Shown piece after piece: positions 1 through 64,000 of a DNA stretch of 64,000 nt. The translations under genes were made by a program, and so were the position numbers. Position 1 is the first letter of the stretch, and every line of letters begins with the position of its first letter. The notes below the pieces were generated by a model. That model was not told the origin of the DNA, did no database searches, and saw only the letters and a list, made by a program, of their open reading frames with translations. The stretch spans positions 124,001 through 188,000 of the forward strand of contig JAFCMP010000457.1 in the NCBI GenBank assembly GCA_017506865.1, given 5' to 3'. Source of the stretch: Tribonema minus (lineage: Eukaryota > Sar > Xanthophyceae > Tribonematales > Tribonemataceae).

Positions 1-150
1 GCGGTGCTCAGGAGCCGCCACCTGGCAACGCTCAACTGCCGCCACCTGGCAGTGCTCAGGAGCAGCCTCCGCCACCTGGCAGCGCTCAGCAACTGCCGCC
101 ACCTGGCGGCGCTGAGCAAATTGACACGGAGCGGCCGCCGAGTGACGTAA
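1..150 (+). repeat. Proline-rich PPPGxAQ repeat inside the first MON2 exon
   Basis: The first 120 bases encode about four imperfect copies of a PPPG(S/N/G)A(Q/E) unit, in frame with the conserved helix that ends the exon ([14 protein letters not shown]). The repeat probably sits in the disordered linker that precedes this helix in the family. It is cut by the window edge, so the full copy number is unknown. Confidence 0.6.
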
Positions 151-3100
151 TGTCCGCGGCTCAGTCGCGCGGCGCGCTGCGGGAGATGGTGGAGGGCTGC
201 TGGGGGGGCATCCTGGCGGGCGTGAGCCATGGCCTGGGGCATCTGCAGGTGCGCTGCGCGCTTGGAAATAGCCAGTGTGGCGAACAAAGCTCGGGTTGCG
301 CAATGCTTCGATGGAGTACGTGTGGTGCGCATCTGAAACGGTACTTGATGTGCAGTTGGTGGTTGCTGCATGTCTCGGGCGTACTGGCGGGCGTGAGCCA
401 CGGCTTGGGGCGTCTGCGGGTACGCCGCGCAGTTGGTGGTGGTGCCGCCGATTTCTTGAAGTACACATTTTTCTGATGTGCTTGCCAGTACCGGATGTGC
501 GCATGTGACCTTGACTTAGAGCCTTGGCTGGGGCATCTGCAGGTGCACGGCGCGGTTGGAGGTTGTGCGCGTGCGCTGAAAATACTGGTGCGCCATTCAG
601 TACTCGCAATTGGCTCAAGCAATTGGCTGAAAGTACACCGATAAAAGTACTTCAAATACCGGGTTGAAGTTTACTGTTGCGTACTGGAGCACAGCGCTGG
701 GGCACCTGCATGTAGGCTGGTGTGGCCTGCGGCTCACGAAGTGCCATTGTAGTGCCTGATGAAAAGGAGGGGCTAGGATAAAGTACCAGAGGGCGGTGCT
801 CGCTTGCTTATTTAGGGTTAGGGTTAGGGTTAGGTTTAGGTCCAGGCCTTCCGGCACTGACCCTTCATGAAACTGAGTGTGCAGACGTTTTTGTAGTGCC
901 CAATCGGCATCATGTGCATGTGCAGCTGTATTGTTTCATCACAACTACATAAATACGCATACATTTCAAATTAGGCACTGACGGCGAGGTGTGCAGCGGT
1001 GGTCAATTAACTGCTGGTAGCGTTGTTCCGATGATCACACTTCTATTCTCTTTTGCTTGAGAAGCAGCCTCCTATTCCATTGACAGCACTCAAAACAGCG
1101 TATTTCAAAAGCAGTCCATGCACTGTGGACTTGACCTGTGCGCAGGCTCCGCTGGTGCTGGAGCCGACGCTGCTCGCAGCGGAGCGCATGGCGATCGCCT
1201 GCGGCCTCATGGGCATCGAACAGGGCATGTAAGTATTGGCCTCTCTCGAGTTTGACTTTGTGAGTATTGGCCCTCTCTCTTTTTTTTGTTTTTTTTTTAC
1301 TTTGTGGGCATTTGAACGGGGCATGTATGTATTGCCCCTCTCTCAGATGTTGGTCACGCATGCCTGTTTCTGTGTTGAACAGGTTGTGAACTCAGCCGAC
1401 CGCTCAATTCATTGCGCCCCCGAAAGTGCTGGCAGCATTGCCTGATGGGCGTTGAACAGGGCATGTGTGCACGGAAGTGCTGACGCGCTCTCAGTGCCGG
1501 CGTGCCATGCCCCCGAACCCTAACCCTAACCCTAACCCTTGTGGCGAACGCAGCAGAAACGAAGCCCTCCCAAAGTAGACTCCCGTCATTGCTGCCGTTC
1601 ATTGCCGATGATGCTGCCCCCCAAATGACATGAAGGCGATCGATTACGTGGGCACATGTCAATGGTGGTGCCAGCGTGGGCCCGTGGCGCCGTGAGGAGC
1701 AAGCAATGCACGCAGATCTACGCACTTCGAAGTACAGAGATTTCCAGAAACACACAAACAAATCTTTAGAATGCCAATGAATGTGTTCATGAACTCAAAG
1801 TATGACAAATGCTTTTCTGGTGCAATCCTGTATGTGGCGCGGAAGAGAGAACCCTTCGTTGCGCGCCAGCCTCAGCTGCACGAATTTGCAACTGCGCGGT
1901 CTGCTCCAGACTTCAGCGATGCTGTTATTTTGGGAGTAGCTCAAACTCCGCATACTAAGCTCTGCATGTGCCTGTCACCGTTGTCTGGCGGCGTGGCCCT
2001 ACAGCCGATCATGCGTCATTTGCCTGCGTACAACACGCACTTCTGAAGTGCTGCAGTACTCCTACTGTTGCAATGCGCTGGACAGTACACGAATCTGTGA
2101 AGTCTTTGGGAGTACGAGGTTGGGCCTTCGTGCAGGAAAACGTGTCTGCGGACGTTGTGATCACCGTTCGCATGCGCACCGACGCGCTGAATCTCATACA
2201 TTCACACAATATACTGCAAAGTATACGGCTCATGCGCAAAGGTGTCTGTGTTGGTGCTGGCGCTGAGGCAGGTATGCCTACATGACTGTTGTTTGCATGC
2301 TCACAAACATGCTGGAACTCACAAGTGTTTACCCAACCTCACGATGTAGACACCGCGAAACATATGACTCATGCGCAAAAGTGTCCGTACCGTGCTGGGG
2401 CAGGTATGCCTACATGACGTGCCTGTGCCGGCTGGCGCTGCCCTCCTGGCACAGCAGCGGCAACAGCGGCGGCGGCGGCGGGGGCGGTGCCGCTGCATCT
2501 GCAGGTCAGTCGCTGAAGCCTGTTGAGGCTACACCCTTCTTGCCTCAAGTGCTGCTCGTTTGCCGCATCAGCGATGCTGACGGCATTGCCGCAGCTGATG
2601 GCACTGCCGTAGCGGTGACAGTAGGAGACACCGCTGCACTGGACGTACAATGTCGGTCAAGGCGCTGCCCCTGATGATTGCGGACTGGTATGACAACTAC
2701 AGTCATGGACATGGATTGCATCAACTCTGTGCATGCAGCCTGGTCTTGCCACACCTGCGCTTGCTATCCGCCATAGGCTCTGGTGCTGCCATTCTGTCTT
2801 CAGATGCCCTCGTGTGGTTGTCTGCACCAGACCGCACAGTGCTGCTGCCGCTGATGGCTCAAAGCCGCAGTCGCTCAGTTCAGCAGACGCGCAATTATCC
2901 CTGTCTCGAAGTTGTGCGACCCACATGTAATTTTAGGCAGTGCCGCTGCTGCAGCTTGGGCTAGCGAGAGGGGGGGGGGGGGGGGGCTCAGTGATGTGAC
3001 ACGTGAGGCGCGTTTGCATCACTGCTACAGCTCTCTATTTGGACAGTGTTGCTCGACCGCCTGCATGCCTGCACACCTCAAGACAAAACACTACATCGCG

Positions 3101-6100
3101 TGCGTGCGTCTGCCGCATGCAGCCAGCGCCGCCGCGGCAGGCGGCGGCGGCGGCGGCCCCGTCCTGTCGCATCGGCATGTTTGCGCTCTCGCGACACTAC
3201 TGCGGCTCATGCACCGCCTGGGGGACCTGCTGGGGTCGGGGGCATGGCACTCGAGTTTGGATGTCATCGATCAGGTAAACCGCGCGTGCGACGCGCCGCT
3301 GCGTTCGGTCTCACCTCACATGCTGCTCGACTGTACTCTGAAGTCTTGCTGCTGTTGAGATCGTGGTGAGCTTCGATTCAGTGCAATGCCGCCGTGAAAT
3401 CACATTTCATGAGGACGCTTCTTGGCGTTACCTGCTTTGCAGGGATTGTGGTGAGCTTCGATTCAGCGCGGTGCCGCCGTGAATTAACGTGTTGATGAGG
3501 GCCCTTCTTGACGTCGCCTACTTTGCTGTCTGCAACGCAGCTTCAGTCTGGCCAGTTCCTGGCTCTGGTTCAGGTCTGTTTGAAGGCTGCTGATCTGCAG
3601 CGACGGCAGCTTTGTTTTCTTTGCTGTAGAGGTGCAGGATTCATGGTCGGGACCGCGAAAGGGCCTTGGCCGTCGGCAGTGCAGCTTTGTGGAGAGCAGT
3701 ACCTACACCAAAGACATACTTACCGACAATAGATGATGGAATCATGAATCACGACTCAAGCAATCTGAACATGGATTCAGTCATACTTCCGAAGTAGTAT
3801 AAAACAAATCAAAATACAAGTGACGTCTGTGCCAGTCTCTGTCTCTCGGGTTTCTCAAATGTTTGAGCACGGATGCACTGCCGTGCGTCTACTGCGATCG
3901 GGTGGCGTGCTGGCGGCAACTACATGCCATCAAGCTGCTGCCGCATCGGTCAGAGGCCGCTTGTTCCTGGTCACGCACGCCATGCACCACCGCCACAGCA
4001 CAGTTCCACCACGTAGTCAGTACATACATGCCGCTGCACATGCGCCATCCCACCATGCTGACACCGCGGTGTTCGCCAGCTGCTACTCGTACAGCAATCT
4101 GATGAGTTGGGAGAGCGGTACCTGGTGATGACTGCAAAGTCGTCTGCAACAGTGCTCAGAACGGCTGCGCACCGCTCCTGCTTCACAACCGCTACTGGAG
4201 CACCCACCTGACAGCGCATAGCGCCACCACCGCGCCAGAGGTAAACGACCAAGCAGCCAAGCGGACACACACCTCACGATAGCATGCGTTGCCAACAGAA
4301 GAAGGAAATTAAAAACGCGGTGCGAACCCCGCCCCCTGTGCGCACGCCCCCCCCTGCACGGACGCCACCACCGCCGCCGCAGCGCCACCCCGCACTACCG
4401 CAGATACAATAAATCATCATCAGGTACCACAAGGACACGTCATGTATATGCGTAGTATTGCTTGTTTGCGACCATGCCTTCCTCTTACGCCTCCTCGCTG
4501 CGACTGCGTCCATGCCTCCGCCCGCTGCAGCTGGACGGAACGGCGGTGGCGGGCGAGGGCTGCGAAGCCGCCGCGGCAGCGCTCAGGGCCGCCGCGGGCC
4601 GCTTCGTGGGGTTCTCGCAGGCGCTGCGCGGCCCCGCGCTGCACGCGGCCATGCTGGCGCTCGCGTCGCTGTCCGCGGGCGCGCTGGCGCAGGTATGTAT
4701 GTATGTGCACTACGGTAGCATGTTTTTTTTTTAGCTTGCTGAGATGTGCTGCTAGTGAAGGCGTCGCCTGTCTTCCCGGCATGTGTGCGCGCAGGGGGGG
4801 GGGGGGGGGCGAGGGGCAGTGGCTGTGAATGGTGGTGTGCTGAGCAGCGCTGCCTTGTGCGCCTGGAGAATTGCATTGACAGAAGCGGGTGCTGCCGTCA
4901 GGCACCACGCGAATTTACCTGTATACAGGGTGGCCAGCGCCAGTACCCACTACCGTTGATGTAAGTGCACCCTATGTTGCATTCCGGTATTCTGACCAGG
5001 TGTTGTCTGGATGGTGCAGTCTCTCCATAGACTGGGGGCTCTGTCGTGAAATGCACAGATTATGCAGTGCCCTGAGCGCTGCTGTTCTTCGCTACTTGCT
5101 GACCTGCGGTTACCTTTTTTTGCTTTCTTGCGTGTGGTCCGCGACCGGCGTTACTTCTGCGGCCGCACCTGTGCTGCGCTCCTGAAACTCAGGAATCGCT
5201 GCTGACACCGGTAAGTGGTCATAAGTCCTAGTGTTAGGGTTGCATTCTGACGCCTGCTCGTGTGGCATCAGTCATGCGGTCGAACCTCAAGGGAGCGGCT
5301 CTGAGCTCCGGCCGTACGCATTGGTGGACGCATCCGAGATGTATTATCACATTCATTCTCAACATTCAAGAGCAACGTTCGCAATCATTGAACCATCATG
5401 AGACGCCCACGGCTATTGAGGTATCGAGGCGCAACACGCGCTTTCTGTGTCAACGTGACACCACAGCGGCTTCAGCCCTTTGTCTGTGAACGTTGTTGGA
5501 CGTCCTTCAAGTTTTCAGACATGGGACGGCGGGTAATCCTCGAAGCCTCTTTCGAAAGCCGCAATTCATTTTTTGCCTGCGTCTTGAAAGCGCAAACAGA
5601 AGCTGCACGCAATGTTGACAGGTCCGGCCGTTATCGCCAAGCTCGTCGATTGTAGCGCAGCGGGCTCGTCTTTCCACCACGATGTCCACAATTGAGTTTG
5701 CTGGCCCTGTGCTGAGCGCTGCTGTGTGGTGCGCTGAATGCATCGTACCTTCGTCCTGAAAATGCAGACAGAAGCCGCGCGCAATGTTGACAGGTCCTGC
5801 CGATATCGCCGTGCTCCTCGGTCATAGCACACTGCACTCTCGTTGTCATCACATGATGTCCACGAGCGAGTTCGCTGGCCCTGTGCTGAGCGCTGCTGTG
5901 CGTTGCGCTGACACGCTGTGACCACGGAAACAGGATGCGTCGCCGGCGGCGCAAGGCGGCAGGGGCGGCGGCAGGGAGCGCGAGCACACGCGCGCACTGA
6001 GCTCTTCGGGCATCGCCTCGATGGCAGCCGCGCAGTCTCAACAAGTGAGTGACTCTTTCTGACTCAGACTCATTGGACCTGACTCATTGCGCATTCTCAA

Positions 6101-9100
6101 CAAGTGAGTTGACTCTCCCAGACTCAGAATTATTGGACTTGACTCACCACGACCCTGAGTGAGGGCGGTCATTTGGCGCATAGATGCAGGCAATGGGAAA
6201 TGAAGTGGTACTCGGAGCTCAGAGGTCACTGATTGATGAGATGTCGATCGCATCTTGGATAGCTGCGATGACCTCCCTATTTTTGCATTTGCTTGCATAA
6301 CGCCATCTTGGAGTTCTTGTCTGATCATCACTACAACGCGAAGCTAGCCTATATGATTGGCACCCATGCCACACCTGCATTTGTGTGCCCAGGTGCTGAC
6401 GTCAGCAGCAGTGGCACGATGCCATGTGTTTGCCGTAAGGTTTTTGAACACACTGCACCAAGTATACTGTATGACACTTACATATACGCATGCAGATGCC
6501 ATGTGTTTGCCGTAAGGTTTTTGAACACACTGCACCAAGTATACTGTATGACACTTACATGTACGCATGCACGTATGTGGGTATACTTCACTCAACTGCA
6601 TACTGCTGCATATTACGTATGGTAATGTGCCAGCTTGAAGCCAACCGTCATGCTTCCCCCGCATTGGACACAGAACGCACCCGTGTGCACCGTGAGGATT
6701 GCGGATCCGCTGCAGCAATGGCTGGGCTCCAAGTCCGGCAGCAGCTTTGGAGAGGCAGGGTAAGCGCGGGCCGCAGCAGCTGTCTTGGCGCTCTGAGGCA
6801 GCCAGCGTGACTTGACTTGGCAGTTTCCTGAAGAACAGGGGCATGACGACCATGCACTTTAGATATTACTGACGAATGAAGACAGTAATTGATTCACTGT
6901 GTGTGCAACGACGGGAGCCATCCCGTCACTTTGTCGTTCTGCAGAAGCAGTCGAATTGCCTGAGTCGAGTGCGACCGGCGGCGACAGGACGTGCGCTTAT
7001 CTGGTCTCTTGTGCGTGCGATAAGGGGAGCACTGCTGCAGGCACCGTAAGCAGAACTGAGAGGTAGAACCCTGCCGCCCAAGCAGCTTCTATTTTGGCCC
7101 TGTTTAGGCGCTGACAGAGTAGACGATGGCCTCCTCATGTGCAAAGCCAGTGCGTTTGTACACGTTGGCAGCATTGATGTATGCACATGTACCGCCTAAA
7201 ATATAGAAGCTCAAAAACGCACTCTGACCAGAAACGCACTCTGATTGATGTCAAGTACTTCACAGTATTTGTCTACTTTGAGATACAACCCTTTTTCATG
7301 CCTTGATTAAAGGACAACATGTCAGCTGCTGGAATTGCAGAGATCAAGAGTGGGTCATCATGAACCAGCCACCATCACCCTGCAAGCTGCAGCAGAGTCG
7401 CTGCTGAGTCTGTGACACAATGCTGCCCAAAGCAAACCATCCTGATGATTTCAGCAGCAGTGCTCAGCGACCTCGTACACGTTCATGCGGGCCTGCGAGG
7501 GCTGACATCACTCATCAGCGCTCAGCAAGCGGGTGCATGCCTGCCTGCCGGGGGTGATGTCACGCGTCAGAGCTCAGTCAGCTAGTACATACCTACCCCT
7601 GGCCGGTACACACGCGCGCTTCGAAGGAGTCCGTACCTGCGGCTTGCACGACGCTGTGCCCGGGAGCGTTGTTGCAGCCGCGCGCATTGTGCCTTGCGCG
7701 GTCTGTACACGACCTTGAAGTATGCGCACCCTTTAACTTCAAGATGTGCGTTGCCGCGATTGCACACCTGTTCGCTGCCTGCAGCTTTGCGACCGCATGC
7801 GTGGTGGCTTGCGCGCACGCCAACAGCCATCGCCTCGGCACCATCTGGGACGTCGTGGCGGGGCACCTGAAGACGCTGGCCGCCATCAACAGGTACGTAC
7901 ATACGGTATGCTGCTTACGAGCGGCGGCAGTGGGTTTGCGTGAGCCAGTTTGGAGGCCGTACGTGAATCGTTTTCCTTTTCGTGAGGCTAGCTGCCTTGA
8001 TGGAAGTTGAGGTAGCGATAAGCGTAAGGGGTACACCTTGTGACCCTGCATGCGCACTTGCAAGTCATCATTGCCTCAAAGCACGGGGGGGGATCTGCTG
8101 CTCCATAGCGGGCTAGTCCGACTGCAATATGCGGCTTGACTTCTCTTGAGGAACTTGCTGCCAACTTAAACAGCAGGAATTCTTGTTTCCCGCAACTGAT
8201 GTTGTTTAATTCGGCAGAAAGGACATGCACCTTGCCCCACATGCTTTCGCCAGCGCTTTGTGTGCATGCCCTACCCTGCAGGCACTGCACTCATGTCTGT
8301 AAACGCGCGATCACCTTTTTTGCTGCTGCTCACTGCTCCCGCATGCCCTATCCTGGTTGCTTCAATGCGCAACACGCTCGAAAATGGATTCAGGTGTTCT
8401 GCTCTCGCTTGTCTGAAACAGGCGTATGGATTGCCGACTGGCTAAGGGTTGTGTTGTACTGTGAAGTATGTGCACGCACACCCTCTCGCGCACCAATGTT
8501 CCACGTACTCTTCCCTAGTATTAGGGGTAAACACCTGCTCGCATGTGCTCGTACTCTCATTGGTGCTGCCGCAAGCCTCTGCAACACCCTCTGACTGCCC
8601 TTGCCCCGAACATGGAGCTGCAGGGGGCCTCTGCAACACTGTCTCACCCTAATCCTAACTCTAACCCCAACCCTACTGTTGCTGCCGCTGTCGATAACCT
8701 AACCCTATCCCTATCCCTAACCCTAACCCTGACTGCCCCTGCCCCTGACATGGTGCTGCACGGGCGTCACCCTAACCCTAACTCTAACCCCCACCCTACT
8801 GCTCCTGCCCCTGATGATGCGCGTGACTGGCGTGTTTGTGCTTTCACGGGCGTTGCAGCAAGCCGCTGCGCAATGCGCCGGTGCGCGCTCTATGCCAGCC
8901 TACCAGCTGGTGCTCTGCTGCAGCTACGTGCCTACACTTTGCTGGATGGTACCGGTCAACAAGTGATGCACGTGCTGCGTCCTCCCCCTGGACTCTACGC
9001 AAAAAGTACACACTCCAAGGCCCGTTCTTCAATTGCCTCTGCCCCTGACGGTGTGCCTGATGTGCTCATTGGCTTTATCGATTCTGCAGTAAGCCGTTGC

Positions 9101-12100
9101 GCGACGCTTCGGTGCGCGCTCTGAGCGATCTCCTGGTGCAAGCGCTGCTCAACGGCAGCAGCAGCGCGCCCAAGGTGAGCCGCGCCACGCTGTTCAAGTT
9201 TTCAAACGCATCGTAAGACGCACCACCGCATCATTCAGCGATCGTACGGTCTCGGCGGTGACTGGCAGACCAGAAGCCGCAGAAGAGCAAAATGTGGGCA
9301 ACCCGTGCTCCTTGCTGTTTCAACGGCAAACGCGCTTGCTGTTTCAACGGCAAACGCGCTCTACAGCGGAGGCGTACAATACTTCGTGAGTACCTGTGAT
9401 GCAGTTCTGCAATGTCATAATCAACCGTGCCACGCTGTTGAAGTTTCAAAACCGCATCAGGAGACGCTCCACAGCATTGTTCAGCGATCGTACGGTCTCG
9501 GTGGTGACTGGTACGCCAGCACAGCCGTACAAAGCGTCTGTGTGCAGCGTGCCTCTTGCTGTGTCAACGGCAAACGCGCACTAGGGCACAAAGGGCTACA
9601 ATACTTCCTGAGCTCCTTTGATGCAGCTCTGTAGTCATAAGCATACTTCAATGCGTACGTTGTGACACATGGGTAGGCCAAAACCTGCAGTTCCACAGCA
9701 AAGTCGCTGCAGCAGCAGCAACCTGTCAAAAGTGTGGTGGCTGGTGTCACGTACAGCTTAGGGCATACTATATCATACGTCACAATGAAGTCCCATAAGA
9801 AGTATTCTTATTTGTGAGATTGCCGCCCTCAGCTCATTAGCAGCGAGTGCCCATACTGCCGTACCGGTTCTACTCATGGTGTGTATGTTCTGCCTACTGT
9901 CGTTCTGCTCATTGCAATGTTCCTGACGTGGTTGGGCGTGTGACAGTCGTTTCCCAGCCTGAACTCTTCCTGTACCCTGGGCCTGTTGAGCCTGCTGCCT
10001 GTACTTATTTCTTGCTGCTGCCGCGATGCGATGGCCGTTACGCATGTGTCTGCTGCGTGCGCCTGCACTGGCAGGGTCCAGCAACGCGGCGCGCGTCATC
10101 AGGCGGCAGAGACGAGCTCAATTTGGACTGGGTTTTTGTGGTTGACTTGCCAGGTATGTCCTGTGCAAGATCCTGAGCCCTTCCTGAACTATCAGGAGTG
10201 CTCCATTTTCCAACAGTACACCTACTTCATGCAGCAGCCACAGCAGGCACAAGTGTGCTGGAAAGAAATGGCATCTAGAGCTTGCACTCCTCAGGCGCCA
10301 GTGGACACAGTCGCCTTTTGTTCTAGGCCTAGGAGAAGCACTGCATAAGTTGTATCCGGAGATGGTTCATGAGTACACAAGCGTCAGAGAACGGTTTGAG
10401 GTGAGCTGCACAACACAAAGCACAGGACTCACAGATGATGCCACCCTCAGCCGCCGCCACACGTTTGCAGCCAAGTGCCTAGCTCAAGCTGCAATCACAC
10501 GCTGTTGCTGCCAGTTACCTGCGCTAGCTGCATCGCCTGCTCAGTGCTGCATATCGCCATGCGCGGAGCGCTGATTGCTTGGCTCAGCCTGCTCGCACAA
10601 ATGATATACGACCATACGCAGCGTTCGCCGCACGTGGGCAGTTCCGTGCCCGTTGCCGGCCATGATCACAAGAAGCGACTGGTTTTCACCCGCGCCAACA
10701 CTGTTTCGCATTGGCTGCGCGGCGCAAGCTGGTTTGCCTCTGAGACCGGCCTCAGCGTTGCTGACGCGCTGTGAGTGCAGGGCGGAGCAAGGCAGTCCCA
10801 TGCGTCCATCACCTGAGTCATTGTCAGTGTACGTGCGCGCAGTGGGGCACACGTCGCTGCTGCTCCTCGCCTTGTGCTAGGCGCTGACTGCCACGCTCGC
10901 TGCTGCTGCTCGTTGCCCCCCGACGCAGCGGCGGCTGCGCCACCGGAACATGACGACGACAAGGTGCGTTCATACCAACTTGTGATGTTATTATTAGCGC
11001 TCCTGTTCCCTTGTAGCCATCCACAGCACAGCAGCGCATCACCGCAGCCAGCACAGTTTGCGCTGCGTTTATACTGCTCTGCCCTCACAGCGCGCTTTTA
11101 GTAGAGGCTTCTCTGTCGTTGTAGTGGTACGCGGCGGCGCGTCACTGCAGCCAGCACTGTTTGCCCTGCACCAGATCACCGCGTGGTCTGGTTCACACCG
11201 ACCTCCCCGCGCAGGGCACACACGCGCGCTTTTGTTATTCTGTGGCGGTTATCCCCGCAGCCGGCAGTGCTTGTCGGTTTCCAAGCTCTTAGGGCTTAGT
11301 GCAGACTAAGCTGCTGCAGAGGAGTATACCCTAGGTATGGAGACGACGACAACAAAGTGCGTTGGTACTGCTCTGCCCTCACAGAGTGCATCTAGGCTTC
11401 TTTGACTCGGTAGCTGTACGCAGCGGCGTGTCAGGCGCAGCCCGCACTTGTTGCCCCTGGGCCCGATCGCCACGTCATCAGGCGCGATTACGTATGAGCT
11501 GCAGATGTGAGATCAACCCATATCTGGATCTGTCGGGCGGTGGAGTGGGCGGAGTGGGCTGAGTGTGCTCATTGCAAATTTATAAGTCACGCGACCTCTT
11601 GGCACGAAGCCACGCTTTGGCCACAGGGTTTTGCGAATCAGCAGTTTTAAAGTGCTGTTCCCCGCTTGAAGCTTTGCCATCATGGCAAAGTGACATCGTC
11701 AGGTATGTCTGTTCGCCAGCGTGCTGAATCTTAACTGCCGTGCAATTCAGCATACTTCTGAGTGTATCATGTCCATCAGCAGGTTCGTCTACTGTCTATT
11801 ATCATGAAGCGCTACTAACAAGTCCAGTGAATTAGCGATCTGCACACCGAACAACGCTCACGTGCATGGGTGGAATTGCTGCATTAGCGCCTGTATACGC
11901 GCCATGTGAGGGAGTTGTCAAGTAACTTGCGCCAGCAAGAGCGCCTTCACATTGCATGTTTGTGAGTGCTTTAGTGCATGAAGCACAATGCAATGGCATG
12001 TGAGATACCTGTACTTCAAAAGTGTTGACTGTCCACCGTGTGCCGAATTGCAGGCGCGATTGCAAGCCTCGTTGCTCAAACTGCGTAGAGGCACTGACAT

Positions 12101-38867: not shown

Positions 38868-38897
38868 CAGGACCTCCTCGTCGGCTTGCTGTTGCGG

Positions 38898-42665: not shown

Positions 42666-43334
42666 CTGCGCCCCCCCCCTGCTCAGCAGCGCCTGCTAGA
42701 CTGAGCTTTGCAGTATTGGGTGCAATCACGAGCTGCGTCGCTCCTTCGCCTTCGCGCTGCCGCCTGCTGCCTAGAGTGGTTACCAAATGCTGCCTGCCAG
42801 TCGCTGCTGCTTTGTACCCGTCGCGACGCGCCAGACACACCGTCTCTTTATACGCTGCTGCCTGCGGCACCACACCTATGTAGTTCAGTAGCTGCTCGCG
42901 AATTGCAATCAAGTTCCAATTGGAGCGAATGGCTTACTCACTCACCTGTCAGCGAGTGGCAAGTCGAGTATTCGCGTTTCCCGAGAACTTTCCCGAGAAC
43001 TAGAAACGCTGGCTTTGTGGAGCCTTGGCAGGAAATGCAGCGGTGGTTGCTCTCGTATATGCTTATACCGCGCTGCAACAGGCACCGCACATAAGGCGAA
43101 CGAGCCCTGCGCTCGATGCCCAGTATACACCACACACGCAAGCGAGACAGAGCGACGATAACCAACGAGCAAGCCGAGGCTTCCACAGAGGCCATAGTCG
43201 ACAGCGGAGCAGCCACCGAGATCACCGAATCAGCCAGACAGCACACCGACACGAGCATTCGAGCAAAGCCCGCACTTCACAGGCGGCTAGGCAGTAGCAT
43301 CAGCACAGCAAAGATAGTGAGCACCCAGGGAACC
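42666..43334. promoter_or_regulatory. Shared region between divergent start codons
   Basis: About 670 bp separate the ATG of paralogue A (minus) from the first supported ATG of paralogue B (plus). No TATA-like box can be assigned with confidence. A further 5' exon of paralogue B could lie here, since B lacks a visible signal peptide. Confidence 0.35.
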
Positions 43335-54200: not shown

Positions 54201-57200
54201 GCAGGAGGGGTGTATAAGGTAATAGACTGCGTTATGATTGACTACCTCCCACAGCTCCTGACTGGGCAAATCAGTTTGAATATGATTGGGCGACAGGAGG
54301 GGCGCGCCGTAAGAAACAATCCAATGCGACATTTAGCGTCGGTGGCCCTGTCTGAATGGGTACTTGATCAGTGGCGGCGACTGCTACCTCCAGCAGCACC
54401 AGTGCCAGTGCCGACGGCAGGGTAAGTGACACTGGCAGACTGTGCCGCACCACACGCGTCACATTTCAATGCAAGCTCGTGTGACCAGCATGCACGCCAC
54501 TTCTAAATGTCCCCAGACGCACAGCGTCCGCAGCGAAACCAAACCGAGCCCCCCGGCGGCTAGCGGCAACCATTGCGCGCAGTGCCCGCTTCAAGGCGCA
54601 CGCCGTCCCTGCTACACGTCGGCCACAGTACTTCAGTGACAGTGCACAACTTCACGTCAGTGCTCACCCCAGAGGCGCCAGCTGCGCGCCCCAGGGGCTG
54701 CCGCGCGCAGCGGCGGCGGCGGCGGCGCCGGGGGGCGGGCTGCCCTCGGCGGGCCGCGGCGCCGTGCTCGGCGGAAGGCTGGTGCTGTCGCGCCGCGGCC
54801 GCTGCGCATGGCCAGAGAGGAAGCGGCTCGCGTGATCTGCAGCGGAGAGGGGGGCGGTAAGAGAACGGCGTGCTGAGCGCTGAGCGACTGTATAAACTTG
54901 AATTTGTGGTAGGGGCGTCACCCTGCGATGGCAGCGCAGCGGCGGGCGAGCCTGCTAGTGGTGGTATGCGGCGCAAGAGCGCGCAGGGTGCCGGCGCGCT
55001 GCTCGCAGCTGCCGTGGTCTGTGAGTGGAGTGCGGTCGATCGATGCCATGACCGCTGCAAAGGCAAGCGACACCTACAACAAGCGCACCCCTCCGGAGGG
55101 CACCAGGAGGCTGAGGCGAGCATACGGGTGAGGTAAGGCACCCTAAATCAACGCATTCACAACTTGGTGGCGCTGCTCAGCTGCTGTCGCCTGTGAGCTG
55201 TGCTCGTCCACGTGTGGCCTCGGTAGGCTGCAACCCCTGTCAGCAGCCTGCAGGCAGGATTGTGATGCAAACGTGGTTCTGGTGGCGCCGACCGCGTGTA
55301 CCTTCAGGGGTGCCATGACACTTGAGCGCACGCCGCATTACGCCTTTGACGCCACTTCAAATGCAGATCAACATGTGCACTCCACCGAAGCGCTCTCTGC
55401 ATCTTCTTCATTGCCATTACACGTTCTTTGAGCTTCTTCGAGCTTCTTCTCGACGACAACGGCCTAATGCCTACATAATGTCACAGTCCTCAACTGCAGT
55501 CTGGATCGACAAACACAGTGCGCGCCACGCACCATGGGGCTTGAGCGGAACGTGCCCAAGCGAAGCGCGCGGGCGGCTGCGCGCGTCGCCCTTGCCCCCT
55601 GCCGCCGCTAGGCGCCGGTGCTCGGCCGACAGCAGCGCCCTGTGCTCCGCGCGCAGGGGGCTCGTGTCGGGTTTGCCGGGCTGGGGGCCCCCGCCCCCTT
55701 GCCGCAAGAAGTCCTGCGGTGAGGCGGCGCAAAGGCGAGTCGTGAAGCGTGTCAGTACGCAGCTGACTCTGACCCTACTCCGGGGGTGCGCACACTGAGA
55801 GGGACTGGCTGGCAAATGCATGCGCACGGGCACCTATTGCGGGACAGCCGCTGCCAGACGCACGCTGCAGAGGCTGTCGCTGGCGCTAACCTTGATCTTC
55901 ACGCTGAACCTAACCCTCTTTGCAAAGAGTCGAGTCTTGCACTGCTGCAAGCCATGCAAACGCTGCAGTTGCAGTTCACACGGCTCTGCGATTCACATGC
56001 AAGCACAAGCAAAGGCGTGCCGCTCGCAGCGCTTGCATGCGAATCTGCAGCAGCGCGCCGCGGCGTCGAGCGGACGCGTGCCGCGCCGGCGCTGGCGTGC
56101 CGCATCCCGCAGCGGCAGCTCAGCAGCAGCGGCCTCCGCTGCGGCCGCGCGCGCGGCGGCGCGACAGCGCGGCAGCGCCTTGCACACTATGCGCAGTGCA
56201 GCACGGCGCAGCCCGCATTCACAAAGTCAGCAATCAGCGCGCGGCCGCATGATACCAGAGTGGCGCCGCGCTCGCGTGTGCGCACTGTACGCATGTTCGT
56301 ACATACATACATACCTCCAGCAGCAGCGCGTTGTGGCCGCAGGCGAACGCGCTGCGCCGCCGCAGGTGCGACAGCTGCTGCGAGCGCGTGCTGCCGTGGC
56401 GCTGCAGCAGCGCGAGGCCCGCCTGCGCGACGGCGCACACCTCAAAGTGCTCGCCGGCGTGCGTCGCGTGCGCCAGCGCCAGCTCCAGCTGCTCCAGGCA
56501 CTGCACGTTTGCATAAGTGGCAAAGGTGGCGAACGTGACGCGGCGCGCCGCATATGCAAGCGCTCGAGTGCAGTTCAACGAAGTGCTCATGGGCGGGCGA
56601 TGTGAGCGCCTGCGCTAGCATTAGCTGCTCCAGGCGCTACGCGTGCGTGCGCACGGCGGGGCGGGATGGGGGGCTTGAGAGGGGGGATGGCGAGATGACG
56701 CGGCAGGCCGCATGCAAGTTCGTCTGACGAACTGCTGGGCACTGGACAATTTGCCGCTGCTGCCTCCACAGCATCACACAGCTGCATCCTGTTCAGGCCC
56801 ACGGACGAAACGGCGCCTATGCCTATCCCACTGCTGTGCACACCACCAACATTCTTGAGTGGACTGCGCAGACTGCGGGAAGCGAAGCCAGCTGCTGTGG
56901 GCATGAGCGCCACAGGCATCCACAGCAGCTATGCCAAAGGCGCCAACGCAGCCGCAAAGGCGCTGCTGGGTGATCCGCAGTGTGTGTTCGGAGACCTGCG
57001 AGTTGCCTTCGCTGCGCTGACGCACAAACTCTACTGCCACGGCAGGGGTGGTGGCAGAACTGCCACAGGTGGCGGTGGCGGTGATCATGGCGGCGGCGCT
57101 GTAAGAGCATGGCTAGACATATGCCTGCCTTATACCACCAAGCTCACCCGCAGTGCTGCCTTCCTGGCCCGCGTGGAGCATTGGTAAACGTCACGCCTAT

Positions 57201-60200
57201 GAGAACCAGATACCGTTATATTCCCCCGTTATATTCCCCCCTGAAATTCGTATATTCCCGCCAAAATGATTGCTCCAGCAGAACAGAGCACAGTTCATTA
57301 CTTTGCTGCAAAGCATGGCCAGCGCCGCTGTAGCCCCTGCTGTCAATTGGTTCCGTTTTCGCTGAGCTGCGGCTGCTGCCATGGGCAAGTACGACTGCAT
57401 GTACGCCGGCCATGGCTGCACCTCTGGCAGCAATCAGACTCACAAAGTGCAGGCGTGCGGTTCTTGCGTCAAGGAAGGCCGTGTCCTTGGCGATGGCAAT
57501 TCAAGTCTCGTAAAGCAAAGGCCAAAGCAGAGGAGAAGCGCAAGGCCAGCGGCAAGGGTGCAGCTCAGATTGCCATCAGCAATGGCAGGAAGAAGGCCAG
57601 GAGGGAGGCAGAGCTGAGGGAGGAGCAGCAGAGCGTGCTTGGCTCCATTCTGGACCCTGAGATCACTGACGAGGAGGCGAAGCAGATAGTGATCGACCAG
57701 GTTTACACCAACCCCATGGTGGCCGAGTTCATTGCTGCCTCCACCACCGACCAGAAGATCCCCGGCTACTTTGGCCTCACAGGAGGCACGATCAAGAAGG
57801 AAGCTGTCAGGTTTCTGTGGGCGAACAACTCTAGACCTGTGGTGCAGCCTATTGATGGAGCCTCGGACCCCCGCGCAGGCCAAAAGGGCTTCCTGACTGA
57901 AGCCAATGCAAGGGAGCTGGTGGAGTACACCCCCGAGCCCCTCTACAGCAGCAACAACGTTTTCAACGTCAACAAGGTGGAGTTTTGGGCGCAGAAGCTG
58001 CAGGACCATCTCCCTCTAGGGGTGAAGCTGTGGCGGGTGTGCAATGCTGGAGGAGGCGAGGACCAGCGTGCAGGCGTTGGGAAGCTGTACAAGATCTTCT
58101 TTACCAAGCTGAGAGACACCCCTGAGAACCTTCAGCTCAGGGTGGTGGAGTAGGCTTTGTGAGCCTTGGGGACAGGTTGTGCGTTGTACAGAGCAGTTTG
58201 CTGGACTTGAGCGGATTGCAGGCAGCTACAAGTGAGTTTGCTACAGCATTGGCAGACATTGTGCGCGGTACAGAACAGTTGGATCAATTTTGCGGGAGCT
58301 ACAGGCACGCAGTGTTCGGCCACGGCACCTAGCTAGCGGGCAGCAAGTGCGTTTTCATGTTGATGTGCTGTGAATTGGTACAACCCCTACGCTGACTTTG
58401 CAACACCTACAGCCTTGAGCTGTGGGTGTACTTCGTACCACACACATGCCATCACATATCTTGAGACAAAAATACAGTGCTTTTCAACTCCACTTCACTA
58501 GTGCACTTAAGTGTTCTGCCTGTGTGCATGTGGCATGTGTGCAATCCTGCCTGCTATGAGCCTGCTGCTGCTGTGCTGCATTGAGGGGACTGCCTGCTGC
58601 TGTGCCATGTCTGTATCAGTTTCACAAATTTGCACTAGACAGAAATGGTGGCATTGATGCCATGCAAACCAGGGGCCTTAAGGAGGGCGAGAAACGTCAC
58701 CCACTTTCATCTCTCTCTCTGAAGTAGATAATTTGTGCCGCACTAGGACGCATGTGGTTTGTTGAAGTGATGTGCAGTTACAGTGCTTTGGTATTGTAGT
58801 CGGTGTGGAGTGTTAGGCTTGAGCTGTCGGGAAGCAACAGTACCTGCACTGCAAGCGATCGGGTCTTCCCCGTGCTTGAACAATACACCTCACTGTACAT
58901 CCTTTCATTGCATAAAGACAACACTGAGGGAGCAGAATTTTTGGCGCAGCGTTCGTGCTTTGACATGTCACGGCTCTCCTTCATCTTGCCCCTAACAGTT
59001 CCAAAATATGAAAATATATCACACTGAAGTACCCACCTGCGAAACAGGTTACTCAGGGCCGATGGTCAAATGTACCAGCTTGAAGTTCAAACTTGAAGTA
59101 CGCACCTCCTCGTACGCCTCCGCGACGAGCCCCTGCGCCGCAGCCTTGGTCGCGTACTCCGCGACCCTGCTGTGGCTGGTCTCGGCCTTGATGCAGTGCG
59201 CGGCCACGTCGGCAAACGGCACCACGCCGCGCCCGCCGTCCTCGCGCACATAGCACTGCGCCGCCGCGTAGTGGATCTGAGAGCGCGCAGGGGTCGCACG
59301 CATGCTGCGCATTTATGCGTTTTCGAGCTAAGCTCTTGGCTTTCGCTGATGAGCACGATGCACGTTACGCATGCATGTATATACAGTATGTAGGGCACCA
59401 CGCCGCAGCTGCCGTCCTCGCGCATGTAGCACTGCGCCGCCGCGTAGTGGATCTGAAGTGCGAGACGCGCTCCGCACGCTTGTGGTTTGATGCTGCGCAT
59501 GTATGCATGTGCTACGTTCTTGTTGTTTCACTGATGAGCATGATGCACGCCATGCACGCATGTATTGTATGCATGCGCGCCTGCCGTCCTTGTGCCCGTA
59601 GCACTGCGCCGCCGCGTAGTGGATATGAGGATGCGGCAGGCGTCGCACGCTGCCGGCATTATGCTGTGCGTGTACGCGTTTGCTATGTTTGCGGACCGGT
59701 TTCACTGATGAGCACAGCGAATGCATGGTCGCATGGTGCATCAGCAGCGCCGCGCCGCCGCCGCAGTCCTCTCGCGCGTGGCACTGCGCCGCTGCGCAGT
59801 GGGTCTGAGCACGGGCGGCACGGCGTTGTCGCATTCTCCATGCGATACGGTGAGCGTACGTACAGGTACTGTAGCCGGAAGACTACTGGTAACAATCAAC
59901 AAAAAAACACACAATTTTCAGGTACATGAAGTAGCACACGCAGCACGCACCTTCCGCCTGTCCCGGATGGGGGTGAGATTGTACAGCGTTTGCTGCACCA
60001 GCGGGTGGTGAAACCGGTAGGTCACGCCCTCCCACTGGCCGTCCCCCTGCTTCGCCCCCCCCTCCCTGTCCCCCTCCCCCCCCAGGGCAACGGCCCCCCC
60101 CATCTCCCCGTGCAGTTGCTCCAAAAAGCGGCTGCTCTCCAGTTCCACCAGAGCGTCCCTGGCAGCGCGGCGACACGCGAACGCAGTCGTGTTTGTGAGG

Positions 60201-63200
60201 CCAAGCATCACGCAGGACAAGGCGATGTACTTTAACTATGTATGAAGTATGAAGCATTGAGTACAAGGCATGGCATGACAGACTGGCAGCAGCGGCTCAC
60301 GGAGCAGCTGCGGTGCAACTCCGTTTCAGCATCCCTGTGAGCGCTCAGTGTTACTACTATCGTACATGCGGCGTACTCTTAAGGGTGTCACTTTTAGACT
60401 GTAGATTATGGTATGATCTTACAGATGCCTCTACGAGGCGAGACAGCATCCATGCGACGCGACGCAAGATATCACTACTTGGAGCAGACAACGGTCACAT
60501 GCTCGTGGCCATTCGCACGCTTGACGGTTACGGCAGTTACACACACCTGACGGTCGCGACCAGCGGCCGCGGCAGGACGGCCACCAGCACCTTGAGCGAG
60601 AACTGTAGGCCTATGACGCTGGCGTGGCGCGCCACCAGCTGCTCCTTGGCGGAGAGGCGCTCCAGGCGATGTGTCACCATGTGCGCTAGGCGGAGGTTTC
60701 CGCCGCGCAGCTGCGACAACCGCAGGATTTTATACATGTTGACGTCACGCGTGTTTCGCACAAAAACGTACGGTTGAAACTGCATGTGTATCAGTTCTGA
60801 CCCCTGCAATCCTGCGCCTTCAGAGGTCTTTGAAGTGGCAGAAAGGCGGTTTAGGCGGTGGGTCATCGTGTGCACTAGGCAGGTTTCCGCCTCGCAGCTG
60901 CGACGGCCGCAACACACGTCAGTGTCAGGCGTACTTTGAAAGAGTGGTGGTACCGCACAGAGGTGTAGTCATGGAGCGTCGAGTGATTCAAACTGCACGT
61001 AGATCAGTTCTGATGTCTGCCATCCGGGTTCCAGGTGAAGTATGATGCTCCTTCAGAGATCATTGTGAAGTATGGCGCGGAGGCGCAACAGTCGGTGCGC
61101 GGCGCGAAGGTTTCCACTGCGCAGCTGTGGCGACACGACAGATGTGCATACATACCACTGAGTAGGGGCACCGCACAGATCTGCACCCAAGAGCACGAAG
61201 CGGTTCAAAGTGTACGGCTCATCAACTCTGACGACATTGGAAAAAGAAGAAGCGTCAACACGCCGCAGCAGGAACGCTTCGCTGACCTTGCCGCCGCCGC
61301 TGCTGGTGCCGCTGCTGCCACGATATTGCGGCCCATCCTTCGCGCGCGCCTCACAACATGGGAAAGTACACGCACGCTACACAAAGAGGTAGCAAGTACA
61401 CTTGCCCTGGCGCACGCGCACAGAGACCACTAAGACCATTGACCAAACCTCGCGCAACTCCAATACGCCTGTGCGCACCTCAAAAGATGCGCCGACCTTG
61501 CCGCCGCTGCTGCCGCCGCTGTTGCTAATGATACTGTTGCCGCTGCCGCCAGCGCTGAAGCTGCCCGCCGCAGCACCCGCCGCCGCCGCCGCGGCGCTGG
61601 CGCCGGCGGCAGCACCGCCATCTGCGCCCTCTGCTGCGCCCACGGTTGCCATGAACTGCTCCAAGGAGACCTCACGGCTGTAGGCGGCAATTTCAGCGCA
61701 CCTGCAATAAGAGCGGTCGCGATCACCATGGTCCGTGTGAGGTTGCAACTGCGGCATGATGCGGGTGCATCAATTGGACTACGCGGTGCACATTCGTTTT
61801 CAACGACACTGCCGTATCATACTTGAAGTGTCCAGTGCACGCTCATTTGAGCTTCTGGTCAAGGTCTTGCCCTGGGTATCGGTGCATAGCAGGTCATGTT
61901 TCGCGACATGATGCTCCAAGGCCGGTAAGCACGTCCATAGGAAATGTCAATCACTCTTCTTCCCAGTACAGCAGTTGAAGTAGTTACCACGTTTGCACCG
62001 ACCCATCCAGGCATGTGCTTCGTCCGCGATGCTCACTCGTCATCACCATACGCATGCGCGCGTGCGAAGACGATGCGCATGCTCAAAGTACCCTTTGCGG
62101 CATGTGCTGCAGGCGTCCATTTCACAATACCGCAAGTCAATCACTGCCTGGTGCGTACTGTATACCGTCAGGACAAGCACATGGTAGCACACAATATTTT
62201 TTAGGCATAGCAGAGTTGAAGTCCTCACCAGTAGGGGTTGCCGCCGCTCAGCTCCAGCACCCGGTGCACGACCTGCATGCAGCAGAGCATGGTGCGTCAG
62301 CCATTAGTGACGTTCGTTGCAGGAGTTCAGCAGAAATGCAGAAATCGTAGCCAGCAGTGGTAACCCGGCAAAACACAAATGCGTTATCGATCTCTTGAAC
62401 ACGCAGTACTGCCGTGTGCTTTGCTTTTGCAATGGGCTGAAGTCTACGCAGGCACAGGGATGCGCTGTGCGCAATGCCTTGTCATGACGTGGAGGTGGCA
62501 TGACGGGTGTGGGGGACTTACTGCGATGCAGTTGCTGAGTGATTGAGGTAGGATTGCAACACGCGCTGCCGCTGCGAACCATCACCACCAATGGGTCGTG
62601 GCTTGGCCAAGTTCTTTCGCCACCAACAACTTGCTGAAGCAGACGGGCAATGAAAGAGGCGCTGCTGCAAGTAATGTGAACAGCTGATTTGAGGTGCAAG
62701 ATACGACATGACCAGCTTTTGAGATGTGCGAAGTGCTAGTGTGGCTTCTTCGTTTTCACACAGGCTGAGCAGGCGTCAGCTGACTTTGGCCCCAGCTTTT
62801 CCAGAGACAGCCGACACGTCACCAAGTATGGCCTGTGCGCAACAGTGTCCTTGTGTGCAGCAGTCCTTACTGGTCCTGTAGCGCTGACCATCACATGAGG
62901 GCAGCTAATAGGCAACCGCGAGACAATCATATTCCACTACCTCGTGCATGTGTTCGGTGTCGTAGGGGCATCAGTTCAAGCCTTGGTCAAATCTTGAAGT
63001 TGCATATGCACGTGACTCACCTCGTCTGGCAGCGGCTTGCCTGCGCCGACGCCCATGGCCATGAGCGCCTCTGCCACTTCTGCATGCGTCAGGTTCCGCA
63101 GCTCGAACCTGCAGCAGCGTCGCAGCAACACTCAGCCTCAGACGAAGCCTCAGACGAGGACTTTGTGGTACGTTTCACAAAAACCCATGTGGCGCCACAC

Positions 63201-63898
63201 GTCACCACTGCAATGTGCTGTTGTGCTGTTGAGCAGGCGCAGTAGTGACCATAACCCTCACCTACCCTAACCCTAACACTCTCCCTAACCCTAATCATGT
63301 GTCATACGCGAAGGCTCATCATACTCGAGCTGGTTGTAGACTCGATATGCCATATAGTCCTGGCGCGTGGCCATCGCCCTCTGCTCAAAATACCTATACT
63401 TGAAGTAATTCAAGTACCTCAAGTACTGCCAATCCCTGCCGCTGTCACATTGCACCTTGCTTGTTGCAAGTGCATCAGCACCTTGCTTGTTGCAAGTGCA
63501 TCAGATTTGCAGCAGGCAACACATTCCTGAGGACATTGCCATTCCCAGCATAACGCACAGGACCAATTCATCACTACTGCTGTTCTTTCACTCCCTTTCC
63601 AATTCCGCCCCCGCCGCAGCCACACAGTCACGCGGCTGCGCGTCGCAGCAAGCCCTGACCTGGCCTCTCTGAACTCTGGCGCAGCCAAAAAAGCCAAGCG
63701 AATGCGCACATCACAGCGAGGCCTGACCTGGCGCACGCCCCCGGGATCTGCAGCAGGCGGAAGTAGTGCTGCGCGTTCCTGCGCACGGGCTTGTCGTACG
63801 TGATGTACGGGCTGTTGTGCGCAAAGCTCCAGCGCCGCTCGTCCATGGGCTGGCTCGTCAGCACAAAGAGGCACGGGCAGCGCCGGCACTGCGCCAGC
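48277..63898 (-). CDS. Soluble adenylyl cyclase-like STAND ATPase, 5'-partial, with long disordered tail
   Basis: Exons 63898-63728, 63108-63021, 62272-62229, 61701-61479, 60710-60547, 60158-59951, 59276-59106, 56500-56315, 55713-55533, 54836-54668, 54184-53988, 53215-52899, 52607-52175, 51252-50987, 50599-50143, 49647-48902 and 48354-48277 (stop TAG). All phases agree, giving 1,365 residues. Early exons carry the C-terminal half of a STAND/AAA ATPase as in soluble adenylyl cyclases: CLFVLTSQPMDERRW (strand and sensor), ELRNLTHAEVAEAL, LELSGGNPYWCAEIA, HRLERLSAKEQLVARHASVI, then YRFHHPLVQQTLYNLTPIRD and IHYAAAQCY leading into helical TPR-like repeats. The cyclase domains would lie upstream, outside the window, so catalytic identity is inferred. 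From 55713 on, about 947 residues are Ala/Gly/Pro/Ser-rich with scattered RRxS-like sites, ending in an acidic LESDDDSDPPPSTAK. It could instead be another STAND signalling protein. Confidence 0.68.
49058..49078. repeat. Telomere-like variant tract inside a coding exon
   Basis: ctagggttagcactagggtt lies within the exon 49647-48902, where it encodes part of the low-complexity tail; the frame stays open on the minus strand. Confidence 0.55.
51340..51595 (-). repeat. Two acceptor-side ghosts of exon 51252-50987
   Basis: On the plus strand, gctggtgccaacggcagtgg, a cgcgcgcgctgcggcgcctg core and ggcggcacag at the real junction (51200-51272) recur at about 51356-51422 and, more diverged, 51512-51582. 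The period is about 155 bp, and each copy is followed by a related block ending gcatgagat or similar. Each copy includes about 50 bases of exon plus the acceptor. Confidence 0.85.
53579..53602 (-). repeat. Donor-side ghost of exon 54184-53988
   Basis: The minus strand reads ccccgttccaag then gtgagccatc, matching the real exon end ccctttccaag then gtgagccgtc, about 390 bp further into the intron. It adjoins dispersed family 1 copy 3. Confidence 0.6.
53597..53747 (-). repeat. Dispersed repeat family 1, copy 3
   Basis: Minus-strand order: gctagcctaccaactagtac, a ctgcagctacgtgcctgcac block, ggtaccagtcaagaagtg, cacattccaaggcctgttcc. Matches 8891-9030 and 30784-30919. A cagaagtac insert distinguishes this copy. 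Confidence 0.7.
53800..53821. repeat. G-homopolymer
   Basis: About 20 consecutive G in an intron; similar runs are at 2970-2987, 4796-4810 and 41581-41599. Assembly length is unreliable at such runs. Confidence 0.85.
55886..55916. repeat. Degenerate CTAACC tract
   Basis: gctaaccttgatcttcacgctgaacctaaccc shows weak telomere-like repeats in an intron of the STAND gene. Confidence 0.4.
56623..56648 (-). repeat. Acceptor-side ghost of exon 56500-56315
   Basis: Plus-strand agctgctccaggcgctacgc resembles the exon start agctgctccaggcactgcac at 56488-56507, about 135 bp into the intron. Confidence 0.5.
56699..57187 (+). CDS. Intronic open frame, unknown
   Basis: Open for 163 codons up to a TAA, with internal ATGs (for example 56819). 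Seen in it: FRPTDETAPMPIPLL, SSYAKGANAAAKALLGD, a Gly-rich loop and ICLPYTTKLTRSAAFLARVE. No family recognised. It lies inside the 2.6 kb intron of the minus-strand STAND gene and 194 bp upstream of the next frame, so both may belong to one inserted element. Codon use alone does not prove coding. Confidence 0.3.
   Translation, partial: RGRPHASSSDELLGTGQFAAAASTASHSCILFRPTDETAPMPIPLLCTPPTFLSGLRRLREAKPAAVGMSATGIHSSYAKGANAAAKALLGDPQCVFGDLRVAFAALTHKLYCHGRGGGRTATGGGGGDHGGGAVRAWLDICLPYTTKLTRSAAFLARVEHW
57222..57262 (+). promoter_or_regulatory. Repeated gttatattccccc boxes upstream of 57381
   Basis: gttatattccccc occurs twice in tandem, followed by a related gtatattcccgcc, within 160 bp of the ATG at 57381. 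This is locally AT-rich and TATA-like, but assigning promoter function is inference. Confidence 0.4.
57381..58153 (+). CDS. Intronless nested gene, unknown function, one apparent frame break
   Basis: Begins at an ATG in good context with a small Cys/His-rich region (MGKYDCMYAGHGC and ACGSCVKEG), which could bind zinc. Near 57503 the frame must shift by one base to enter a Lys/Arg-rich segment (RKAKAKAEEKRKASGKG) and then a well-formed acidic/hydrophobic region (SILDPEITDEEAKQIVIDQV, PGYFGLTGGTIKKEAVRFLW, EYTPEPLYSSNNVFNVNKVE) to a TAG. Base composition is moderate, unlike neighbouring exons, and there are no introns. It sits on the opposite strand inside an intron of the STAND gene, suggesting insertion of a mobile or retroposed gene. 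I do not recognise the family. The frame break may be mutation or indel error. Confidence 0.55.
58154..59040 (+). other. Region downstream of the nested gene
   Basis: Two diverged repeats of a gttgtgcgttgtacagagcag-like block (58176-58196 and 58259-58277) follow the stop. Otherwise no gene was seen. Neither clear terminal inverted repeats nor a target-site duplication could be found by eye. Confidence 0.4.
59400..59812 (-). repeat. Three acceptor-side ghosts of exon 59276-59106
   Basis: The exon start (plus strand gcactgcgccgccgcgtagt ggatctga) recurs at about 59412-59455, 59583-59628 and 59763-59808, each with the preceding gccgtcct(c/t)gcg of the exon and followed by intron text including tgatgagca(c/t)(g/a). 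The period is about 175 bp. Each copy keeps a CAG/CAT at the junction, so some remain plausible decoy acceptors. Confidence 0.88.
60828..61240 (-). repeat. Two acceptor-side ghosts of exon 60710-60547
   Basis: The junction (plus strand ggaggtttccgccgcgcagctgcgac) recurs at 60880-60904 (ggcaggtttccgcctcgcag) and 61107-61130 (gaaggtttccactgcgcagc). Exon-side text (ggcggtg.gtca.c.tgtgc) and intron-side text (aactgca.gt..atcagttctga) are shared. The period is about 200-225 bp. Confidence 0.85.
63255..63296. repeat. Interstitial telomere-like array (CCCTAA)
   Basis: Several CCCTAA units with CTCTCC and CTCACC interruptions, in the intron between exons 63728 and 63108 of the STAND gene. Confidence 0.8.
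63460..63505. repeat. Short tandem repeat, 26 bp unit
   Basis: caccttgcttgttgcaagtg catca occurs twice in a row at about 63452-63503, in an intron. Confidence 0.85.
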
Positions 63899-64000
63899 CT
63901 GCGGCGTCACACGTGAAGTTGGAGAAGTTCGATCAGTATCAGCGAGATCATTATTACATGTGCTTGAGAGGAGCAAAAGTCTCTCAGACGTAAAAAAGGA

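Follow-up and report, generated by a model that had tools for sequence, protein, structure and literature searches.

Decayed local copies of exon edges in the introns of an algal genome, probably left by frequent small duplications

The growth of introns is mostly credited to transposons, and intron gain by tandem duplication was reportedly put forward by Rogers in 1989. In human duplicated genes, internal tandem repeats have been described at exon-intron boundaries, where they can make splice sites and novel introns (Genome Biol 2009, PMC2812944). Intron gain via tandem duplication has been reported for the potato RdRp (PMC4974935) and for Drosophila (PMC2891723). Introners are sequences with splice signals that fill introns and copy themselves into many genes (PMC9860276). 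Small tandem duplications arise in mammalian cells when CST and polymerase alpha-primase fill in staggered breaks that are then closed by end joining (PMC8355091).

The window analysed here is a stretch of 64,000 nt of intron-rich eukaryotic DNA (positions 124001-188000 of contig C457) from a genome of 158 Mb (554 contigs), and its introns hold copies of neighbouring exon edges, which we call ghosts. Like the human boundary repeats, these are local tandem repeats that straddle exon-intron boundaries. However, the human repeats are described as recent minisatellites with units of ~30 bp in primate segmental duplications (PMC2812944), whereas the copies found here are degenerate, lie mostly ~85-415 bp apart and occur at about one sixth of the eligible edges (43/254). 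As in intron gain by tandem duplication, duplication near splice-like sites alters the intron-exon structure, but the described systems make a new intron from exonic sequence, whereas here existing introns lengthen and show no register in the 131 testable introns. Ghosts share with introners (PMC9860276) that they are intron-filling sequences with splice signals, but they copy their own neighbouring exon edge. The CST/polymerase alpha-primase fill-in has in common with the present case that small tandem duplications arise from it in a general way; it is known from mammalian cells, with insertions below 100 bp (PMC8355091), and is proposed for this alga by analogy. Edge ghosts as a genome-wide feature are not described in the titles and abstract openings among the matches listed in the literature, which is weak evidence as subscription literature lies mostly outside that scope. 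We favour, with a probability of roughly two thirds (about 0.68), the reading that small local duplications are frequent in this genome and tolerated in introns, the splice site attached to the exon being kept.

Gene models and local copies

Exons were called with a self-trained HMM exon model (training runs of 259 kb and 241 exons), so that all gene models are computed and not RNA-based. Across 24 loci (289 kb, window included), the model called 267 exons and 234 introns, with a median intron of 546 bp; edge counts draw on a wider sample of 328 kb, again with the window. One locus that overlaps the window (L001) was left out, as was L028 from the intron list (it overlaps L027), while L026 and L029, which overlap by 997 bp, were both retained (L029 is without a called exon). 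The model sometimes labels a ghost as exon (e.g., 59399-59452). Independent support for the gene models comes from locus L022 (G000:C1:1000001-1010000), a myosin gene (Myosin_head, E 1.7e-150) that also matches PDB myosins. The genome as a whole has 96 myosin exon matches on 20 contigs and 132 kinesin matches, and a genome search for the RuBisCO small subunit gave no match, a single sign that the organism is perhaps not a green alga. The following genes were predicted in the window:

165-31135, plus strand: Mon2-like gene of 30 exons (HMM; Mon2_C match, E 7.8e-15)
35910-36851, minus strand: PPR protein (Pfam search)
38901-43092, minus strand: small gene (HMM; no Pfam match over the cut-off)
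43482-46898, plus strand: small gene (HMM; no Pfam match over the cut-off)
48280-63898, minus strand: 23-exon gene (HMM; the submitted 428 of its 1428 residues gave no Pfam hit)

A long open frame at 57531-58149 was called as an exon in the first HMM run and disappeared after retraining; its protein has no Pfam match.

A sequence-only reading of the window had pointed to 16 places where introns seemed to contain tandem copies of blocks spanning a neighbouring splice site. Local copies (at least 34 bits, within 800 bp) were found at all 16, versus 45 of 259 random non-exonic positions of the window (300 drawn, those in called exons removed). The relation to an exon edge stood for 13 of the sites, which lie at the edge of an HMM exon (1307, 2268, 8863, 14874, 19626, 20430, 20884, 22359, 27276, 46034, 51340, 59400, and 60828). 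At 12036 and 13456 a repeat is present but no exon was called, and the relation is uncertain at 28161, where the called edge shifted between HMM runs (28342 vs 28401). Two of the 13 involve low-scoring exons (19590-19622, score 4.6, and 27630-27680, score 6.9), and the pair linking 27276 to its exon edge is classed as low complexity. Four edge ghosts absent from that reading were also detected (377-436, 6089-6146, 45658-45706, and 53576-53600). The copies in the window are:

1146-1228, plus strand: exon of the Mon2-like gene whose donor edge is copied (HMM score 13.3)
1305-1344, plus strand: donor-side ghost of 1210-1247 (85% identity, 39.2 bits, offset 95)
377-436, plus strand: donor-side ghost of 206-265, exon edge 248 (83% identity; newly listed)
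2223-2286, plus strand: acceptor-side ghost of 2362-2418, exon start 2404 (78% identity, offset 139)
6089-6146, plus strand: donor-side ghost of 6030-6086, exon edge 6044 (86% identity, offset 59; newly listed)
8854-8891, plus strand: acceptor-side ghost of 9085-9122, exon start 9090 (84% identity)
12025-12069, plus strand: local copy of 12100-12144, no called exon (80% identity, offset 75)
13465-13496, plus strand: local copy of 13235-13266, no called exon (84% identity)
14873-15004, plus strand: donor-side ghost unit of 14746-14875, exon edge 14800 (86% identity, offset 127)
19687-20116, plus strand: three donor-side ghosts of block 19580-19660, low-scoring exon with edge 19622 (81-87% identity, offsets 93, 237, and 471)
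20423-20475, plus strand: acceptor-side ghost of 20631-20683, exon start 20640 (92% identity, offset 208)
20895-20938, plus strand: donor-side ghost of 20774-20813, exon edge 20800 (89% identity, both ends sharp)
22451-22922, plus strand: donor-side ghost array of block 22319-22393, exon edge 22358 (offsets 132, 271, 398, and 527)
27255-27580, plus strand: repeat units 5' of the low-scoring exon 27630-27680 (76-89% identity; 27255-27307 matches 27609-27661, the low-complexity pair)
28151-28207, plus strand: copy of 28326-28382, exon edge 28342 or 28401 (84% identity, offset 175)
45658-45706, plus strand: acceptor-side ghost of 45810-45858, exon start 45844 (86% identity; newly listed)
46116-46313, plus strand: donor-side ghosts of 45983-46167, exon edge 46033 (offsets 133, 70% identity, and 279, 89% over 38 bp)
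51340-51582, minus strand: acceptor-side units of block 51187-51257, exon 50987-51252 (offset 153; TRF period 159, 2.5 copies)
53576-53600, minus strand: short donor-side ghost of 53976-54000, exon 53988-54184 (92% over 25 bp, 37.4 bits; newly listed)
59394-59826, minus strand: acceptor-side ghosts of block 59218-59281, exon 59106-59276 (offsets 176, 71% over 455 columns and 92% over 63 bp; 348, 71%; and 528, 81%)
60836-60911, minus strand: acceptor-side ghost of 60647-60724, exon 60547-60710 (81% identity, offset 189)

Donor ghosts lie downstream of their exon and acceptor ghosts upstream, as had been claimed. This direction requires no mechanism, because tandem copying of a block that spans a boundary has to place the surplus unit in the intron if the exon is to stay whole. 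The suggested exon part of 20-60 bases proved roughly correct, with copies that extend 10-70 bp into the exon at 60 of 75 edges (10 bp being the minimum accepted).

Compared with itself, the window gives 57 repeat rows with copies under 3 kb apart and nine with a wider separation. Over the 24 loci (289 kb), 403 local pairs, a count that includes exonic and low-complexity pairs, were found versus none in a single block-shuffled control. The copies are exact in a few arrays (14017-14362, 30127-30304, and 34786-34991), as might be expected if the copies had been introduced by misassembly; this origin is very improbable, as clusters are mostly 72-92% identical (10-90% range) and at least one local pair is present in 23 of the 24 loci. 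Exact to near-exact tandem repeats of 100 and 129 bp occupy 34701-35210, in a minus-strand frame that appears PPR-like by eye, and mark either a recent repeat change or an assembly point.

An edge was considered eligible if the adjoining intron has 250 or 300 bp free of called exons, and later sets exclude low-complexity pairs as well as pairs separated by more than 500 to 1000 bp. For exons that score 15 or more, boundary-straddling repeats occur at 43 of 254 eligible edges (328 kb), and the counts are 31/180 for scores of 25 or more and 56/319 for scores of 8 or more. The density of ghosts is strongly uneven between places, as the myosin locus L022 has them at 11 of 18 eligible edges and ten other loci with myosin matches together at only 4 of 31; L022 is perhaps a local duplication hot spot. 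Overall, 24.7% of intron bases lie inside a duplication span or within 20 bp of one, spacers included.

Exon edges compared with intron interiors

The initial proposal went further and saw in the ghosts a mechanism that preferentially duplicates sequence over exon boundaries. In a naive permutation, 50 of 105 clusters span an edge, versus 24.9 +- 3.9 expected (left out were 15 clusters that span more than 2 kb or have two exonic copies, and 13 that lie outside predicted genes). This null takes no account of the conserved half of a pair at an edge, which keeps such a pair recognisable for longer. We therefore simulated duplications with random breakpoints, neutral decay, and conserved exons. 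Rate, age, indels, and unit length are free parameters, for which several settings were run, none formally fitted. Simulated interior coverage (27.9 and 29.3) roughly matches the 25.3 observed. The simulations yield more clusters than were observed (~101-115 per replicate vs 71), and thus comparisons of cluster fractions lean on the model.

Coverage at edges is 1.6 times that at points lying 60-240 bp into the same introns (43/245 edges vs 26.9 interior-equivalent; 1.22-2.14, locus bootstrap), and in a set of 167 introns the ratio is 1.58, or 1.72 without L022. Two settings of the neutral simulation gave pooled ratios of 1.09 and 1.10, with the top of 12 replicates at 1.67 and 1.39, respectively. 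Most edge ghosts thus require no targeting, since a neutral model with random breakpoints already gives ~1.1. For pairs of at least 85% identity, the observed ratio rises to 5.0 (14 vs 2.8; 2.13-15), or 5.7 in the 167-intron set, versus 1.8-2.0 pooled in the simulations. Pairs aligned over less than 0.6 of their offset are 3.8 times commoner at edges (2.11-6.27), versus 0.6-1.9 simulated. The fraction of clusters that span an edge is 41/71, versus 0.31-0.32 simulated, and after masking of exons 20 of 59 clusters lie directly against an edge, versus 0.15-0.17.

The edge ratios of 1.6 and 5.0, the roughly doubled cluster fractions, the persistence of the effect without L022, and a coverage maximum within ~30 bp of the edge favour a mutational process that itself prefers exon-intron edges and copies tens of bp from each side into the intron. 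We nevertheless regard such a process as unlikely. Some of the excess also arises in neutral models in which exons are conserved and duplications are old, and one old, indel-rich setting reached a ratio of 2.3 for all pairs, by chance and on few hits. Moreover, once exons are masked, intron ends are touched at 18 of 232 (0.078), versus 0.060-0.063 simulated, and the edges themselves come from computed gene models. A boundary-preferring mechanism is therefore not established, and what stands of the proposal is the residual excess of 1.58 vs 1.09-1.10 together with the roughly twofold cluster fraction. The remaining edge excess is ~1.25 to 2 times, depending on the statistic; it is weakly supported and may or may not outlast better annotation.

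The reach of the copies into the exon bears on the same question. In tandem-like edge pairs (31 edges, including two rows from locus L006 with repetitive exons), the median reach is 59 bp and 19% exceed 80 bp, versus a median of 86 bp and 53% above 80 bp when breakpoints are simulated at random (181 cases; KS p 0.006). A reach that is mostly below 80 bp is consistent with an edge-preferring process. Long ghosts, which could be mistaken for exons, may be weeded out, or the copying process itself may be bounded. It is conceivable, if doubtful, that splice junctions are hot spots of local DNA copying that seldom extends more than ~80 bp into the exon and that seeds intron growth, perhaps through breaks linked to transcription or splicing.

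Decay of the ghosts and form of the duplications

A dN/dS of about one half is the benchmark for a constrained exon compared with a dead ghost. Over 59 exon-ghost pairs the value is 0.44 (110 synonymous changes over 667 sites and 143 others over 1958 sites). It is 0.53 in the 22 pairs below 80% identity, 0.44 in the 18 pairs of 80-88%, and 0.28 in the 19 pairs above 88%; this last value is below the expectation for a dead copy and rests on few changes (17 and 14). Splice sites follow a similar course. GT is retained in 27 of 37 donor ghosts, with GT bases kept at 61/74 (0.82) vs 919/1106 (0.83) for nearby exon positions, and AG is retained in 22 of 24 acceptor ghosts (46/48 AG bases vs 648/706 exon positions). 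The ghosts thus do leave decoy splice sites, as had been noted from the letters of the window, and 39 of 58 decoys hold at least 70% of the score of the real site. The further suggestion that they provide raw material for alternative splicing is plausible insofar as these decoys still look usable, but the overall neutral decay speaks against their use.

Selection for ghosts as alternative or regulatory splice sites, or as exon ends, is suggested by the scores of these 39 sites, by the dN/dS of 0.28 in the 19 most similar pairs, and by differences that are exclusively synonymous at L034 (4/4), L017 (2/2), L010 (2/2), and L003 (1/1). The all-synonymous cases are however a selected subset, and others of similar identity have non-synonymous changes, including L022 at 4322 (one synonymous, three not) and L019 at 2588 (0 and 2). 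In addition, the exon parts contain 119 gap columns over the 59 pairs (one pair accounts for 63), splice dinucleotides decay as neutral bases do, and dN/dS, at 0.44 overall, reaches 0.53 among the 22 pairs of lowest similarity. A functional role is thus highly unlikely and unsupported overall, if less improbable for the youngest pairs (0.28), and the ghosts look like neutral relics on the whole.

Aligned lengths are mostly ~30-370 bp, and the arrangement is mixed, with some copies head to tail and others split by unrelated sequence. Among junction pairs below 85% identity, the aligned length is at least 0.8 of the offset in 40 of 90, and among those of at least 85% identity it is below 0.6 of the offset in 18 of 25. 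Many high-identity edge ghosts are sharp-ended blocks with unrelated sequence between ghost and exon. Intron-internal pairs of at least 85% identity are likewise aligned over less than 0.6 of the offset in 25 of 34, indicating that the spaced-block pattern is a property of the duplications of this genome and not of edges alone.

Origin of the copies and intron growth

Decoy splice sites occur in introns at many genes, and 34 of 196 introns have sequence that is not of low complexity in common with another sampled locus, as might be expected from introner-like or other dispersed elements that carry splice sites. We give almost no weight to this origin and reject it, as 56 of the 61 edge ghosts lack a match at any other sampled locus. 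The five that do match find their best counterparts in myosin loci, where related exons are expected; the same element was thus not found in many introns. Two introns searched genome-wide match only themselves (the search skips very common words). One of the five matching edge ghosts, beside a myosin exon of L032 around 772, is matched 12 times at other sampled loci, most closely over 44 bp at 100% in L036, and is possibly a dispersed repeat.

A known path to new introns is the tandem duplication of an AGGT segment within an exon (PMC4974935, PMC2891723), and its relics would have their donor and acceptor edges in register. Among 196 introns examined, 131 (60-985 bp) were testable, longer ones being unable to show register, and none of the 131 has a register match. 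The ghosts also include true intron sequence. This type of intron gain is hardly credible as their source and was rejected.

Telomere-like tracts of the TTAGGG type were considered as a filler or trigger of the duplications. The sampled 328 kb contain 53 such tracts, 43 of them in predicted introns and one in an exon, and those in introns of the window are:

812-840, about 1514-1539, 8698-8730, and 13967-14005: telomere-like tracts in introns

Of the 43 intronic tracts, 15 lie in or near duplication spans, versus 12.2 +- 2.9 by chance (p 0.21), and the tracts were rejected as filler or trigger. One striking case of a telomere repeat with a duplication is present in L017 despite the lack of an overall association.

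The copies lie near their source, in the same orientation, and with few exceptions the edge ghosts are not shared between the sampled loci. Together with the near-neutral decay, this supports the claim that introns grow by local duplication while the outermost copy of the exon is retained. Under the favoured reading of frequent, tolerated local duplication, the genome would undergo frequent small duplications in the same orientation, which may arise through replication slippage or through a form of break repair in which staggered breaks are filled in and their ends then joined. Copies that fall within an intron or span a single edge would be nearly harmless, as the spliceosome presumably stays with the outermost, exon-attached site, whereas copies that break an exon would be purged. 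The extra copy of the exon edge would then decay neutrally within the intron, which is thereby lengthened. Several observations count against this reading: the edge ratio of 1.58 is above that of the model (1.09-1.10), as are the ratios for pairs of at least 85% identity (5.0 vs 1.8-2.0) and for pairs aligned over less than 0.6 of the offset (3.8 vs 0.6-1.9). The exonic reach is below the prediction for random breakpoints, which selection against long ghosts could explain, dN/dS is 0.28 in the 19 most similar pairs, and sharp-ended, spaced blocks are not produced by simple head-to-tail duplication.

The growth of introns by small duplications is directly visible in this genome, where about a quarter of the intron sequence lies in or beside duplication spans, spacers included. 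A preference for edges, if true, would link intron growth to transcription or splicing. The decoy splice sites, in graded states of decay, are a natural test of how the spliceosome chooses the outermost site, and the dead exon edges provide a nearly neutral clock adjoining each exon.
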